A stretch of DNA of 32,452 nt from Candidatus Berkelbacteria bacterium CG10_big_fil_rev_8_21_14_0_10_43_13 (GTDB lineage: Bacteria > Patescibacteriota > UBA1384 > XYA2-FULL-43-10 > 1-14-0-10-43-13): assembly GCA_002773985.1 (NCBI GenBank), contig PEZW01000011.1, positions 1-32,452 of the forward strand. The letters are read 5' to 3'. Positions 3,192-27,504 of the stretch are shown in pieces. Made by a program: the position numbers and the translations under genes. Position 1 is the stretch's first letter, and the number at the start of each line of letters is the position of its first letter. The notes under the pieces were generated by a model. The model was not told where the DNA came from. It searched no databases and saw nothing but the letters and a program-made list of their open reading frames with translations.

Positions 3192-3275
3192 AAAGTTTGT
3201 AAAGTCAGAAAGTTTATAAAGAGCGATCGGAATTAATTTCTTTATAAACTTTAAAAACTTTTTACTTTACAAACT
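3192..3275 (+). repeat. AT-rich imperfect inverted repeat between the two tRNAs
   Basis: The left arm at 3192-3221 and right arm at 3240-3275 share the words AGTTTGTAAAGT and TTTATAAAG in inverted order, with a central spacer near 3222-3239. The same vocabulary recurs at 6085-6172 and 16355-16497. Confidence 0.75.
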
Positions 3276-14087: not shown

Positions 14088-14128
14088 CACAAATGGATAA
14101 CGAATGGTCTAAATGACCAATCACCAAT
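14088..14128 (+). repeat. Left inverted repeat of GxxExxY cassette 1
   Basis: The 41-base arm matches the reverse complement of 14522-14562 at 33 of 41 positions, counted by eye. It starts two bases after the FtsA-like stop codon. Confidence 0.85.
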
Positions 14129-14140
14129 AAACAAATAAGA

Positions 14141-14518
14141 ATGACTGAGCTTTTGTACAAAGATTTGTCGTATAAGATAACCGGATTAGCTTATAATATT
14201 GATAATACAATTGGATATGGTCAGACTGAACAAACTTACGGAGACGCTCTTGAAGAATTGTTAAAAGAAAACGGCATTAAATATCAGAGAGAAGTATATT
14301 TTCCAATATTGATTGGAGACAAATTAATTAAGAGGGAATATTTCGACTTTTTGATAGACGACAAAATTATTGTCGAATTGAAAATTTCAGACAGAAATTA
14401 CAAAAAAGCTTGTACGCAGATATTTAAATATTTGAAGTCAAGTGGTACAAAACTGGGATTGATTATTCGATTTACAAACGAAGGTGTTAGAATAAAAAGA
14501 ATTCCAAATTATTATTAG
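14141..14518 (+). CDS. GxxExxY protein (PDDEXK_3 nuclease-like), copy 1
   Basis: 125 aa. It begins LLYKDLSYKITGLAYNIDNTIG, then the family-naming GQTEQTY, and REYFDFLIDDKIIVELKIS, in which D, E and K line up as the D-ExK core of the PD-(D/E)XK fold, and QIFKYLKSSGTKLGLIIRF. The family (often called GxxExxY) is abundant and multi-copy in many uncultivated bacteria; its biological role is not established to my knowledge. The gene has no Shine-Dalgarno. It is enclosed by inverted repeats that fill all the space between the FtsA-like stop and the next start. Catalytic residues appear intact, so nuclease activity is plausible. Confidence 0.9.
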   Translation: MTELLYKDLSYKITGLAYNIDNTIGYGQTEQTYGDALEELLKENGIKYQREVYFPILIGDKLIKREYFDFLIDDKIIVELKISDRNYKKACTQIFKYLKSSGTKLGLIIRFTNEGVRIKRIPNYY

Positions 14519-14521
14519 TCA

Positions 14522-14562
14522 ATTAGTCATTGGTTATTTAGAAAATTAGTCATCCGTTTGTG
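14522..14562 (+). repeat. Right inverted repeat of GxxExxY cassette 1
   Basis: Reverse complement of 14088-14128 with eight mismatches. It ends two bases before the next gene's ATG (14565) and begins three bases after the cassette gene's stop. Confidence 0.85.
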
Positions 14563-16354: not shown

Positions 16355-16497
16355 AGTTCATAAAGTAGAAAGTTCATAAAGTAGGAAAGTTGGAAGGCTT
16401 GTAAAGTAGAAAGTCCACAAAGAATTACATTACAAACTTTTAAAACTTTTAACTTTATAAATTTTATAAACTTTATAAACTTTCCAACTTTATGAAC
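16355..16497 (+). repeat. About 140-bp AT-rich imperfect palindrome
   Basis: The left half (16355-16421) has tandem words TTCATAAAGTAGAAAG; the right half (16434-16497) inverts them (ACAAACTTTTAAAACTTTT ... TTTCCAACTTTATGAAC). The outermost words are AGTTCATAAAGT and ACTTTATGAACTT. The start codon of ruvX (16492) lies inside the right arm. Confidence 0.8.
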
Positions 16498-16902
16498 TTT
16501 CTAGCCATCGATTGGGGTGAAAAAAGAATAGGCTTAGCGGTCGGTGCCATCTTTCCAAAAGGCGCAGGTGTTATTGATGGTGCCAAAGATTCCTCACAGA
16601 TCATCGATGAAATAAAAAGTGTAATTGCTGAAAACGAGGTCGATAAAATAGTTGTCGGTATGCCGATGTTGCCAAGCGGCGACGAGGGAAGATTGGCGCC
16701 GCAGATCAAAAAATTTGCCATCGGCCTCGGCGATGCGACCGGTCTGCCGATTATTTTCGAGCCGGAGGAATTTACCTCGGTTGAAGCAAAAGACCAGTTT
16801 AAAGCTCACGGCAAAATTCCAAATCGAAAGAGTGGAAAAACGGACGAGATGGCAGCGATTATGATTCTCGAGAAGTTTCTCGAGAAAATGACAAAATCCT
16901 AA
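16492..16902 (+). CDS. ruvX: Putative pre-16S rRNA nuclease / Holliday junction resolvase-like (YqgF/RuvX)
   Basis: 136 aa, the normal length. RNase-H-fold motifs: AIDWGEKRIGLAVG at 5-18 (catalytic D7), DKIVVGMPM at about 47-55, FEPEEFTSVEAKDQF, and KSGKTDEMAAIMILEKFL near the C-terminus with the second acidic residue. The family matures the 16S rRNA 5' end in E. coli. The ATG is part of the preceding inverted repeat and no Shine-Dalgarno exists, so initiation must be SD-independent or the start is repeat-supplied. Confidence 0.9.
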   Translation: MNFLAIDWGEKRIGLAVGAIFPKGAGVIDGAKDSSQIIDEIKSVIAENEVDKIVVGMPMLPSGDEGRLAPQIKKFAIGLGDATGLPIIFEPEEFTSVEAKDQFKAHGKIPNRKSGKTDEMAAIMILEKFLEKMTKS

Positions 16903-19237: not shown

Positions 19238-19342
19238 AATCACGAAAATACGAACAATACAAAAATACAAACAGTTTAAGGTAGTCTGGTGGCTGATGAT
19301 ATTTAAAATTTGTATTTTCGTATAATTTGTATTTTCATGATT
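19238..19342 (+). repeat. Gene-free inverted repeat between mreB and mreC
   Basis: Arms 19238-19271 and 19309-19342 are reverse complements at 29 of 34 positions, counted by eye, with a 37-base centre. The left arm starts two bases after the mreB stop; the right arm contains an in-frame ATG (19337) of mreC. Shares TACAAATTATAC with the repeat at 26630-26664. Confidence 0.85.
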
Positions 19343-23775: not shown

Positions 23776-25266
23776 ATGGCAGAAAATTTGGGTGCGACTG
23801 AAAAAGAACTAGTCGAAAACAGGCTTGAAAAACTTGAAGCCTTGCGAGCGCAGGGTGTCGATCCGTATCCATCGAAATCCAGCCGGACAAAGATGACGGC
23901 TGATGTTCGAAAAGACAAGGACAAGCTGATTGCCGATAAAGCAAACGTGACGGTCGCCGGCAGGCTGATGGCTAAGCGCGGTCATGGTAAATTGATTTTT
24001 GCTGATATTGAAGATATCACCGGTAAGATTCAAACTGTCTTCAAAATTGATATTTTGGGCGAAAAATTTGATCAAATTTCTTTGTTCGAAGTCGGCGATT
24101 TTATCGAGGTAGTCGGCACAGTCTTTGTGACAGCGGCCGGTGAACTGACAGTTGAGGCTGAAGGAATTAAAATTCTGGCCAAGACGATTCGACCAATTCC
24201 TGAGAAGTGGTATGGTATCAAAGACGAGGAGCTGCGTTTTCGCAAGCGTTATCTCGATTTCATACTCGAGCCGGAAATGCGTGATCTTTTCATCAAAAAA
24301 GCAAAATTTTGGCAATCGATCAGAGAGTTTTTGGTTGCAAAAGGTTTTCTGGAAGTAGAAACTCCGGTGCTGGAATCGACAGCCGGTGGTGCGGACGCAA
24401 ATCCATTTACAACACATCATCATGCCTTTGATATGGATGTTTACCTGCGAATTTCGACAGGCGAGCTTTGGCAGAAGCGATTGATGGTGGCTGGATTTGA
24501 AAAAACCTTCGAAATAGGTCGACAATTTCGAAATGAGGGCATTTCTCGCGAACATCTCCAGGATTATTCTCAAGTTGAATATTACTGGGCTTATGCCGAC
24601 TATGAGGACAATATGAAAATGGTTCAGGAAATGTATTGCCATGTCGCCAAAGAAACATTCAACACGACAAAATTTCAGATCAACGGTTTTGATATCGATT
24701 TGGCTGACGACTGGACTCACTTGGATTATGTTGAGACCGTAAAAGAAAAATTAAGCATCGATGTTCTGGAAGCGTCAGAGGATGAGATAAGAGCAAAACT
24801 AAAAGAATTAAAAATTGAATTTAAACCAAATGAACGTCGTGGTCGCCTGATCGATTCACTCTGGAAACATATTCGCAAAACGATCGCTGGGCCGGCTTTC
24901 CTGATCAATCATCCAGTTGAGGTTTCGCCCCTAGCCAAGCGAAAAGCCGACGATCCACGTCTAGTTGAGAGATTCCAGCCGATTATTGCCGGGTCCGAGA
25001 TCGGAAACGGTTATTCTGAGCTGAACGATCCGGTCGATCAGCGTGCACGGTTCGATGAACAGGCCAAGATGCGGGCGGAGGGTGACAATGAAGCCCAGAT
25101 GTTTGATGAGGAGTTTGTCGAAGCGCTAGAATATGGCATGCCACCGACGACTGGTTTTGGCACATCTGAGCGGATGTTTGCCTTTCTTGCCGGAAAAACA
25201 GTTCGTGAGGCACAGATATTTCCACTGATGAAACCAGACAAGCCAGAGGCTGGCAAAAATTCTTAA
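23776..25266 (+). CDS. lysS: Lysyl-tRNA synthetase, class II
   Basis: 496 aa, usual length. An N-terminal OB-fold binds the anticodon (AGRLMAKRGHGKLIFADIED, about 55-74). The class II core shows RFRKRYLDFI (motif 1 region), FLEVETPVLESTAGGADANPF, FEIGRQFRNEGISREH (motif 2), and GNGYSELNDPVDQRARF with EYGMPPTTGFGTSERMFAFLAG (motif 3). CCGAGG at 23766-23771 is the SD-like site. It charges tRNA-Lys. No repeat insert was seen in this gene. Confidence 0.97.
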   Translation: MAENLGATEKELVENRLEKLEALRAQGVDPYPSKSSRTKMTADVRKDKDKLIADKANVTVAGRLMAKRGHGKLIFADIEDITGKIQTVFKIDILGEKFDQISLFEVGDFIEVVGTVFVTAAGELTVEAEGIKILAKTIRPIPEKWYGIKDEELRFRKRYLDFILEPEMRDLFIKKAKFWQSIREFLVAKGFLEVETPVLESTAGGADANPFTTHHHAFDMDVYLRISTGELWQKRLMVAGFEKTFEIGRQFRNEGISREHLQDYSQVEYYWAYADYEDNMKMVQEMYCHVAKETFNTTKFQINGFDIDLADDWTHLDYVETVKEKLSIDVLEASEDEIRAKLKELKIEFKPNERRGRLIDSLWKHIRKTIAGPAFLINHPVEVSPLAKRKADDPRLVERFQPIIAGSEIGNGYSELNDPVDQRARFDEQAKMRAEGDNEAQMFDEEFVEALEYGMPPTTGFGTSERMFAFLAGKTVREAQIFPLMKPDKPEAGKNS

Positions 25267-25367
25267 TTATTAATTTTTAATTTCTAATCAATTCCTAATT
25301 TCCAATTTTTAAACATTAATAATTAAAAATTGAATAAAAATTAAGAACTAAAAATTAGAAATTGGAG
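25263..25367 (+). repeat. AT-rich inverted repeat between lysS and serS
   Basis: The left arm (25263-25311: TTAATTATTAATTTTTAATT and onward to CCTAATTTCCAATTTTT) includes the lysS stop; the right arm (25318-25367) inverts it, ending AAAAATTAGAAATTGGAG. The terminal GGAG of the right arm may serve as Shine-Dalgarno for serS. Confidence 0.75.
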
Positions 25368-25371
25368 TGAT

Positions 25372-26628
25372 ATGCTCGACATAAAACTGATTCGTGAAAA
25401 ACCAGAGGAAATTAAAAAGGCGATTGCTCGCAAAGGTGCAGAGCCGGCATTGATCGATGAACTGCTTGATTTGGACAAGAGACGTCGCGACCTGATTGCC
25501 AAAATTGAAAGATTTCAGACTGAGGTCAATATTAGATCAAAAGAGATTGTTCAATATCACGGTCAGCAAAAGATTGACGCTATCAATGATGCGAGTGAAT
25601 CTTCTGAGAAGATCAAACAACTCAAGCCCGAGCTAGAAAAAGTCGAAACTGGCTTTCGTGAAATTGCTTTAGAGATTCCAAATCCGCCAAGTCCGGAAGT
25701 GATCGATGGCGAATCTGACAAAGACAACACCGTCAATCGAACTTGGGGAGAGAAACCAAACTTTGATTTCAAGCCGCTTGATAACATCGAGCTGGCCGAA
25801 AAATTAAACCTCTTCAATACAGAACGAGCGACAAAAGTTGCCGGGTCGCGCTTCTATTATCTGACTGGTGACATGGTAATTATCGAGCAATCACTCTTTC
25901 GTTTTGCTCTCGATTTTCTGGTCGCTGAAAAATTTATTCCAGTGATTCCACCCGTGCTTGTAAACCGCAGAATCATGGAAGGCGCTGGCTATATCCCTGG
26001 CGGTGAGGATGAAATCTACAAGACACAGGATGATCTGTATCTGGCTGGAACATCGGAACAACCGCTGGCTGGCTACCACCTGGACGAAATTTTTTCAGAA
26101 AAAGATTTGCCGCTGCGTTATGCTGGGATCTCAACCTGTTTCCGACGTGAAGCTGGTAGTCATGGCAAGGACGTCCGAGGCATCTTGCGTGGTCATCAAT
26201 TCAACAAAATCGAGATGTTTTCTTTCGTCAAACCAGAAGATTCAACCAAAGAACATGATTACATGGTTTCGCTCGAAGAAAAATTAATGCAAAAATTGAA
26301 ATTGCCATATCAGGTTATAAACATCTGTGCTGGTGATCTCGGTGCGCCGGCAGCGAAAAAATTTGATATCGAAGCCTGGTTGCCGAGCGAGGGCAAGTAT
26401 CGTGAGACGCATTCTTGTTCGAATTGTACTGATTTTCAAGCGCGCCGCCTCAACATTCGTTATAAAAATTCTGAAGGAAAAACGGATTTTGTCCACACTC
26501 TAAACGGCACTGCATTTGCCGAGCGACCATTGCTCGCAATCCTTGAAAATTATCAGCAAAAGGACGGCTCAGTCAAGGTGCCGGAAGTGTTGCAAAAGTA
26601 CACTGGGTTCTCTGAGATCAAGCGATAG
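25372..26628 (+). CDS. serS: Seryl-tRNA synthetase
   Basis: 418 aa, full length. The N-terminal long coiled coil (about 28-105, DELLDLDKRRRDLIAKIERF...) binds the tRNA-Ser variable arm. The class II core has GSRFYYLTGDMVIIEQ, VIPPVLVNRRIMEGAGYIPG, LAGTSEQPLAGYH (serine site), CFRREAGSHGKDVRGILRGHQFNKIEMF (motif 2) and NGTAFAERPLLAILENYQQ (motif 3). ATTGGAG just before the ATG acts as the SD. Directly after its stop comes the left arm of a GxxExxY cassette. Confidence 0.97.
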   Translation: MLDIKLIREKPEEIKKAIARKGAEPALIDELLDLDKRRRDLIAKIERFQTEVNIRSKEIVQYHGQQKIDAINDASESSEKIKQLKPELEKVETGFREIALEIPNPPSPEVIDGESDKDNTVNRTWGEKPNFDFKPLDNIELAEKLNLFNTERATKVAGSRFYYLTGDMVIIEQSLFRFALDFLVAEKFIPVIPPVLVNRRIMEGAGYIPGGEDEIYKTQDDLYLAGTSEQPLAGYHLDEIFSEKDLPLRYAGISTCFRREAGSHGKDVRGILRGHQFNKIEMFSFVKPEDSTKEHDYMVSLEEKLMQKLKLPYQVINICAGDLGAPAAKKFDIEAWLPSEGKYRETHSCSNCTDFQARRLNIRYKNSEGKTDFVHTLNGTAFAERPLLAILENYQQKDGSVKVPEVLQKYTGFSEIKR

Positions 26629-26629
26629 T

Positions 26630-26664
26630 ATTACAAAACTACAAATTATACAAATCTTACAAAT
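26630..26664 (+). repeat. Left 35-bp inverted repeat of GxxExxY cassette 2
   Basis: By direct reading this 35-base arm is a perfect reverse complement of 27057-27091. It begins one base after the serS stop and its last two bases are the A and T of the cassette gene's start codon. Confidence 0.95.
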
Positions 26665-27064
26665 GGTGGAGGGAAAAAATAAAGTAATTTATCTGGAGCT
26701 TAGCTATAAGATAGTCGGCTGTCTTTTTAATGTTTTTAATAATATCGGACCGAACCATCGGGAGAGTTATTATCAAAAAACTGTAGCTATCGAACTGAAT
26801 CGTAGTGGTTTGAGTTTTGTCGAGCAATATCCAGTTGATCTCAAATATAGGAGCGAAAAGATAGGGAAAAGTTTCCTTGATTTTAATATAGAAAACAAGG
26901 TAATCTTAGAATTGAAGTCTGGACGTTTTATTCATCGCGGAGATTTTATACAATTACATAATTACCTAAAAACATGTGGGATGGAATTGGGAATCATCGC
27001 TTGTTTCACAGCCAAAGGAGTGGTTTATCATCGAATTCTCAACATCAAGAGGCACGATTTGTAA
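26663..27064 (+). CDS. GxxExxY protein (PDDEXK_3 nuclease-like), copy 2
   Basis: 133 aa from ATG 26663; the frame stays open upstream but only into serS. LELSYKIVGCLFNVFNNIG is the family N-terminal helix. The naming motif is altered (NHRESYY, with N for the first G). SFLDFNIENKVILELKSG supplies the D-ExK core, followed by QLHNYLKTCGMELGIIACFTAKGV. It is only distantly similar to copy 1, so this is not a recent duplication. A GGAGGG right after the start codon is not a usable SD. Both codon ends fall inside a perfect 35-bp inverted repeat. Role unknown; nuclease fold with intact catalytic residues. Confidence 0.88.
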   Translation: MVEGKNKVIYLELSYKIVGCLFNVFNNIGPNHRESYYQKTVAIELNRSGLSFVEQYPVDLKYRSEKIGKSFLDFNIENKVILELKSGRFIHRGDFIQLHNYLKTCGMELGIIACFTAKGVVYHRILNIKRHDL

Positions 27065-27091
27065 GATTTGTATAATTTGTAGTTTTGTAAT
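27057..27091 (+). repeat. Right 35-bp inverted repeat of GxxExxY cassette 2
   Basis: Perfect reverse complement of 26630-26664; includes the TAA stop (27062-27064). It ends eight bases before the hpf Shine-Dalgarno. Confidence 0.95.
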
Positions 27092-27109
27092 CTAAACCAG
27101 GAGGTGTGT

Positions 27110-27478
27110 ATGAAAATCGAATTCCACATTAAAGATGTGGTTATTACGGCGAAACAAAAAGCGCTGTTTGAAAAGAAATTAATGAAGTTGAAAAAATATT
27201 GCAAGGATGAGTCAGTAACCATCGACGTCTATTTGAAGGACGAGAGTAGCGCGGAGAAGGGTGGTGTTGACCAGACCGTTGAGATCTCGACAGTGATAGC
27301 AGGTGAGAAGATTTTCGTGACTGAAATCGATGACCGCTTGCTACGAGCCTTTGCTCGCGCTCAGAAAGCTTTCGATCGGCAAGTAAATAAATTGCACAAA
27401 CAAAGAATTGAAAAAAGCCACAGTGGGTCAGATAGTTATATTTCGAAGGCACTAAAAGCGTTGAGATTGAAAAAATGA
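27110..27478 (+). CDS. hpf: Ribosome hibernation promoting factor, short HPF/RaiA family
   Basis: 122 aa from ATG 27110, preceded by AGGAGG at 27099-27104, the strongest Shine-Dalgarno in the window; a GTG at 27104 overlaps it and is rejected. The beta-alpha-beta-beta-beta-alpha fold is readable: MKIEFHIKDVVITAKQKALFEKKLMKLKKY, SVTIDVYLKDES, QTVEISTVIAGEKIFVTEIDDRLLRAFARAQKAFDRQVNKL. The protein sits in the 30S decoding site during stationary phase. It lacks the C-terminal dimerisation domain of long HPF. Confidence 0.92.
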   Translation: MKIEFHIKDVVITAKQKALFEKKLMKLKKYCKDESVTIDVYLKDESSAEKGGVDQTVEISTVIAGEKIFVTEIDDRLLRAFARAQKAFDRQVNKLHKQRIEKSHSGSDSYISKALKALRLKK

Positions 27479-27504
27479 CAAGCTGATGTTTGGACCGAAT
27501 CGAG

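Follow-up and report, generated by a model that had tools for sequence, protein, structure and literature searches.

A GxxExxY nuclease gene enclosed by rows of short words that its product probably reads: a candidate palindromic selfish element in Candidatus Berkelbacteria

In the window (the whole stretch of 32,452 nucleotides that was analysed), the gap between serS, which ends at 26628, and hpf, whose ATG lies at 27110, is occupied entirely by one nuclease gene and its two flanking arms. The left arm (26630–26664, forward strand) and the right arm (27057–27091, reverse strand) are exact reverse complements at 35/35 positions, and the match stretches to 39 nt at 97% identity (26630–26668 and 27053–27091). 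No second inverted pair was found within 26300–27500. The left arm contains four inward-pointing words, TACAAAA (26632–26638) followed by three copies of TACAAAT (26640–26646, 26649–26655 and 26658–26664), and words are spaced 8–9 bp within each arm. The gene (26663–27064, forward strand) encodes a protein of 133 aa, P0001; its ATG (26663–26665) spans the inner boundary of the left arm, and its stop codon (27062–27064) lies inside the right arm. These coordinates confirm the layout given in the preliminary description, in which a perfect 35-bp inverted repeat wraps the gene from start codon to stop codon and the unit fills the space between serS and hpf. The source genome (0.84 Mb in 28 contigs) has four GxxExxY copies, two of them in the window. 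The second element (14088–14562, forward strand) has its gene at 14141–14518 and its arms, with words mostly of the form ACNAAT, at 14088–14142 and 14508–14562.

P0001 matched both TIGR04256 (GxxExxY; E 5e-25, 88.1 bits against a cut-off of 35) and PF13366 (PDDEXK_3; E 1.9e-25, 89.9 bits against a cut-off of 22) above the curated cut-offs, which upheld the family assignment first made from the sequence. Residues E34, D73, E83, K85, Q97, Y101 and R124 are conserved in P0001, and the PD-(D/E)XK catalytic residues D73, E83 and K85 are all conserved in its alignment. An AlphaFold2 model (mean pLDDT 93), made from an alignment without plasmid-derived sequences, resembles Cas4 (SSO0001) and lambda exonuclease (4ic1, E 1.8e-4; 6m9k, E 5.3e-4). 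P0001 is predicted to be a PD-(D/E)XK nuclease of Cas4/RecB-like fold with a D-ExK-QxxxY motif. Profile searches of P0001 returned PDDEXK_3/GxxExxY only, with no match to HUH (Y1) or DDE transposases or to serine or tyrosine recombinases, that is, to any known transposase class, and PADLOC matched the protein to no anti-phage defence model. Among 380 sampled genomes of the same phylum, 58 have GxxExxY genes, with up to 12 matches each. At the sensitivity of a single-protein search, plasmids almost entirely lack the family (matches in 8 of 72,556 records), and it was found in none of 50,697 phages; a single-protein query likewise yielded no GxxExxY relatives in viral contigs. A Sphingomonas plasmid (L168) carries a GxxExxY element with CGCGAAG words between fabD and fabG, the gene ending 2 bp upstream of the fabG start.

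Matching arms proved to be the general architecture of GxxExxY genes. Of 141 genes, 119 reached an arm score of at least 14, as did none of the 61 control flank pairs taken at these loci. The mean score of the flank pairs at the 141 genes was 19.7, while neighbouring flank pairs averaged 8.0 and shuffled flanks 8.2, indicating that arm pairing is not due to chance. For 116 copies, each left flank was aligned with the reverse-complemented right flanks of all copies, its own included. Own pairs scored 19.6 on average and swapped pairs 8.9 (99th percentile of swapped pairs, 17.0); the own pairing was the best of its row in 66 copies, and the best of both row and column in 58. Thus, the expectation that the arms of one copy match each other better than the arms of other copies was borne out, and the cassette of one nuclease gene with its own terminal repeats, originally proposed for a single locus, holds for a class of elements with a median length of 476 bp.

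Arms consist of rows of words of the form NRCNRAN, usually 2–5 per arm and mostly 7–11 bp apart. The words are aligned in both arms, with 324 pointing inward, towards the gene, and 8 outward. Between the arms of one element, mismatch is 5–11% at word positions −2, −1, +2 and +4, 40% at the central N and 26–48% in the spacers; the 0% at C (0) and A (+3) arises because both bases were required when words were called. Transversions account for 97 of the 131 mismatches at the N position, and 14 of the 131 are wobble-compatible versus 20 reverse transitions. This predominance of transversions and absence of wobble bias indicate that the words, and not base pairing, are conserved. Word type and spacing vary between elements (TACAAAT at serS–hpf; TACGAAA, CACTGAT, CGCGGAT and CATAGAT in others; CACAGAG in elements from Bacteroides and Bernardetia). 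The grammar itself is common across the phylum, and elements with unrelated flanks have it too. Conservation applies to the short word with its spacing rather than to the palindrome itself. In the related elements L122 and L130 the arms appear, as judged by eye, to diverge independently, and concerted evolution of the arms is not universal.

Four protein columns covary with word bases across 89 elements: residue 14 with position +2, residue 26 with +4, residue 87 with −2, and residue 128, near the C-terminus, with −1 (numbering of P0001). Thr14 occurs with G, and Ser14 or Cys14 with A, at +2; Asn26 occurs with T, and Lys26 or Arg26 mostly with A, at +4. In 29 elements fetched later, Thr14 predicted G in 11/11, Ser/Cys14 predicted A in 14/16 and Asn26 predicted T in 17/17. 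Over the resolved cases from all elements, Thr14 was paired with G in 28/28 and Asn26 with T in 63/63. Lys26 was looser, in the later set as well as over all elements (19 A, 7 T, 2 G and 1 C at +4 among resolved cases), and the nine exceptions combining Ser14 with G have Arg or Asn four positions on, or Gly or Ala at the next position. For phylogenetic correction, Pagel tests were run on a tree from which the tested columns had been left out; of the 118 elements used, 89 had also served in the scan that selected these columns. The pairings of residue 14 with +2 (p = 6e-14, 18–19 independent changes) and of residue 26 with +4 (p = 8e-10, 14–17 independent changes) were retained, and the crossed-pair controls gave p values of 0.86 and 0.41. 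The p values for residues 87 and 128 (1.4e-4 and 1.7e-4) are exploratory because residue groupings were chosen after viewing the data, while those for residues 14 and 26 are backed by the hold-out set. The rules at +2 and +4 hold for all four copies in the source genome: Thr14/Asn26 goes with CACGGAT, Ser14/Lys26 with TACGAAA, and Ser14/Asn26 with ACNAAT in one copy and TACAAAT in another. In the serS–hpf gene, Ser14 and Asn26 are encoded at 26702–26704 and 26738–26740 on the forward strand. Since single residues predict single bases of the repeat, it is very probable that the protein reads the ends of its own element; recognition of its own terminal words by the GxxExxY protein is well supported by these sequence comparisons.

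Sites with and without elements were compared among related genomes. The second element of the window is absent from G002, where the flanking genes abut at an exact empty site, and its site in the congener G001 holds a gene-less palindrome. Upstream of a tpiA-like gene, G318 has an element of ~0.48 kb, G249 has a bare junction that is an exact empty site, and G403 has another GxxExxY element, whose words differ. The comparison of G249 with G318 allows a duplication of at most 2 bp (AA), which is ambiguous, and no target-site duplication beyond ~2 bp was seen. An element with perfect 27-bp arms in G006 is absent from its congener G008. Most copies are intergenic; one is fused behind RuvC, and those with long ORFs represent in-frame insertions, into LepA (G121, G173, G203 and G025) and into RecG (G318, G249 and G377). 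The arm words are translated in these inserts (for example, KTQTNADKTQTDADG), and the G025 element retains both arms. In several genomes of the same family LepA is uninterrupted, with the junction between VRMEW and GYILN. Empty sites in relatives, anticipated in the preliminary description, therefore exist for the element class (the LepA junctions, G249 and G002). No recognition words were seen in the empty sites read; the words sit inside the element. Copies within one genome are diverged, and no recent burst was seen.

Inserts of other kinds were also observed at these loci. The LepA loop of G001, G008 and G022 has short in-frame inserts of ~18–30 residues, and that of G001 (L203) is a CAGTAC-type inverted repeat. 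A second recG of G318 has an in-frame 138-bp insert (L237:1373–1510) unrelated to GxxExxY words. In genus g189, nearly every congener has its own small insert at the site upstream of the tpiA-like gene (L260–L266; L238:1652–2135). Two dissimilar GxxExxY elements occur there, as do a 23S_rRNA_IVP gene, a Bro-N gene, a DUF559 gene flanked by CTTCTCCTTNNAAGGAGAAG palindromes and a GIY-YIG-like ORF (just under the Pfam cut-off) flanked by inverted GTCATCCTGAG repeats; elsewhere in the genus the site has a gene-less palindrome or is empty.

The element is also present between serS and hpf in the congener G001 (JAUSKR010000020.1), at the corresponding position. P0001 and its G001 counterpart are 69% identical, with a dN/dS of 0.15, and hpf is 79% identical. 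At this gap, the more distant relative G010 has a plain junction and G009 a gene-less CRCNGAT palindrome, so that the gap is free of the gene in these two and occupied in the congener. This distribution indicates that the element is old at the serS–hpf site and has been maintained. The perfect arms had been taken to suggest either recent activity or homogenisation. The shared site in G001 and the dN/dS of 0.15 mean that perfect arms do not imply recent insertion. Homogenisation is favoured, since the spacing differs by 2 bp between the source species and G001 in both arms alike, indicating that the arms were kept alike after insertion.

Four gene-less inverted repeats fill intergenic gaps in the window, and none was found in 12 shuffles. 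One (19238–19342), between mreB-like and mreC-like genes, is a palindrome of TACNAAA/C words, the class predicted for the Ser14/Lys26 copy on contig 11 of the source genome (a single case). Another (25258–25363) has TTCTAAT-like words and fills the lysS–serS gap. The remaining two (3194–3275, with words of an AAAGT class, and 16366–16503) share a second word alphabet, ATAAAGT/GGAAAGT. The mreB–mreC gap of G001 (L271) has an ATAAAGT/GGAAAGT repeat where the window has the TACNAAA palindrome. A repeat in G006 (L239:9569–9675, GTCATTGCGAGG..GCAATGAC) was considered as a gene-less copy and rejected, as it has no word grammar; this dispersed GTCATTGCGAGG..GCAATGAC repeat, with a grammar unrelated to that of the words, has many copies in G006 and G009.

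We consider it probable that the serS–hpf unit is an autonomous, REPtron-like palindromic selfish element of ~0.46 kb, whose sole enzyme is a Cas4/RecB-like nuclease that reads its own words. At the level of sequence comparison, the arm pairing, word grammar, element-specific words, covariation, gain and loss, and in-frame insertion into LepA and RecG were established, and we infer that the nuclease itself moves the cassette. In such a mechanism, the nuclease would bind rows of the asymmetric 7-bp word NRCNRAN (TACNAAT here), inward in both arms, and several monomers would coat each arm. The two arms would be brought together, or would fold into a hairpin in single-stranded form, with the nuclease cutting at the element ends. 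The excised or copied palindrome would enter new, mostly intergenic sites, aided by host repair or replication, and gene-less palindromes would be mobilised in trans. Words that lie inside the element, with none in the empty sites read, favour a role like that of a transposase or a REPtron over homing. Scarcity on plasmids and absence from phages, at single-protein sensitivity, suggest slow chromosomal spread as in REPtrons; the same near-absence, unlike the distribution of active insertion sequences, counts against mobility. The occupation of the same sites by different palindromes leaves room for movement by other machinery, and we know of no mechanism for mobilisation by this nuclease class alone.

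The arms might instead be operators, serving autoregulation or allowing a defence or addiction nuclease to spare its own locus, with the gene a passenger and the palindromes spread by other machinery. Such a role fits the overlap of the arms with the start and stop codons, the purifying selection on the protein at a conserved site (dN/dS 0.15), and the gene-less palindromes of other word classes at the same sites. We regard it as unlikely, however, because autoregulation leaves unexplained the second arm behind the stop codon, with its equal word number and spacing, the joint gain and loss of the gene and both arms, and the insertion inside the LepA and RecG frames; the defence variant has against it that the window protein is without a PADLOC match. 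A homing endonuclease, cutting empty alleles at the site so that repair copies the element in, would account for a single small gene of PD-(D/E)XK fold in housekeeping loci, sometimes in frame. This is quite improbable, given that the covarying sequence is repeated in both arms within the element, that the empty sites read showed no rows of words, and that the grammar is common to elements with unrelated flanks.

The clustering of between-arm mismatches at the word N (40%), mostly as transversions, counts against an RNA-level element like the 23S rRNA intervening sequences, in which the arms would pair in the transcript and the insert would be removed or silenced there. Inverted arms do surround one ORF inside transcribed units, and a gene of the 23S_rRNA_IVP family lies at one of the same sites; but strict word orientation and residue–base covariation point to protein–DNA recognition, Rfam matches in the window are tRNAs only, and we judge this explanation very improbable. 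That the unit is an ordinary gene with a chance or recently duplicated flanking repeat is hardly credible: its position is conserved in the congener G001, but the score distribution (119/141 versus 0/61 controls) and the phylum-wide word grammar contradict this explanation.

With the protein understood as a reader of its own ends, a widespread nuclease family of "unknown function" gains a concrete role, the reading of short words in the repeats that flank its genes, and its base-choosing amino acids can be named. It may also explain where the CACAGAGG/TACGAAT-type repeats beside GxxExxY genes come from. The family would provide a compact (~120 aa) sequence-reading nuclease whose specificity evolves via single substitutions, and in-frame insertion into LepA and RecG a route for elements into housekeeping proteins. 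A similar arrangement, with a single gene enclosed by palindromes of its own, may exist in other nuclease families. We give about even chances to the wider proposal that GxxExxY elements form a previously undescribed superfamily of self-mobilising elements, with a Cas4/RecB-type nuclease as sole enzyme and a residue-to-base code for the terminal words, which spread gene-bearing and gene-less palindromes, even in frame into housekeeping proteins.

The literature searched held no functional description of GxxExxY, with GxxExxY and PF13366 appearing in passing mentions only, and nothing relevant on related palindromic elements in Parcubacteria or on the repeat letters. Like the REPtron (RAYT/TnpA-REP; PMC8266576, PMC3116915), the GxxExxY element combines a single gene with its own palindromic repeats, has gene-less repeats dispersed in the genome, and has an enzyme that co-evolves with the repeat. 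RAYT is an HUH enzyme that acts on single-stranded REP hairpins with a conserved motif, whereas GxxExxY is a predicted Cas4/RecB-like PD-(D/E)XK nuclease and its arms are rows of usually 2–5 direct 7-bp words. Rickettsia palindromic elements, as reviewed in PMC10969869 (citing Ogata 2000/2002), similarly lie in frame in housekeeping genes and keep the reading frame open; they are ~150 bp long and, according to the review, encode a conserved peptide, whereas GxxExxY elements have a median of 476 bp and a nuclease gene inside. The 23S rRNA intervening sequence (PMC4990558) is likewise a selfish insert of ~0.4 kb with one small ORF, but it resides in rRNA helices and encodes S23p rather than a nuclease, whereas GxxExxY elements are mostly intergenic or in protein genes. 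Terminal inverted repeats, autonomous and gene-less forms, and insertion polymorphism with empty sites are shared with insertion sequences and MITEs; unlike insertion sequences, the GxxExxY element has no transposase match, no clear target-site duplication, and an arm sequence unique to each element. Cas4, lambda exonuclease and RecB share the predicted fold and the D-ExK-QxxxY motif, and the GxxExxY protein differs from them in its probable sequence-specific word recognition, of which the literature searched held no description for this small family. REPtrons, Rickettsia palindromic elements and rRNA intervening sequences are the nearest in behaviour, and each differs from the GxxExxY elements in at least one defining feature.
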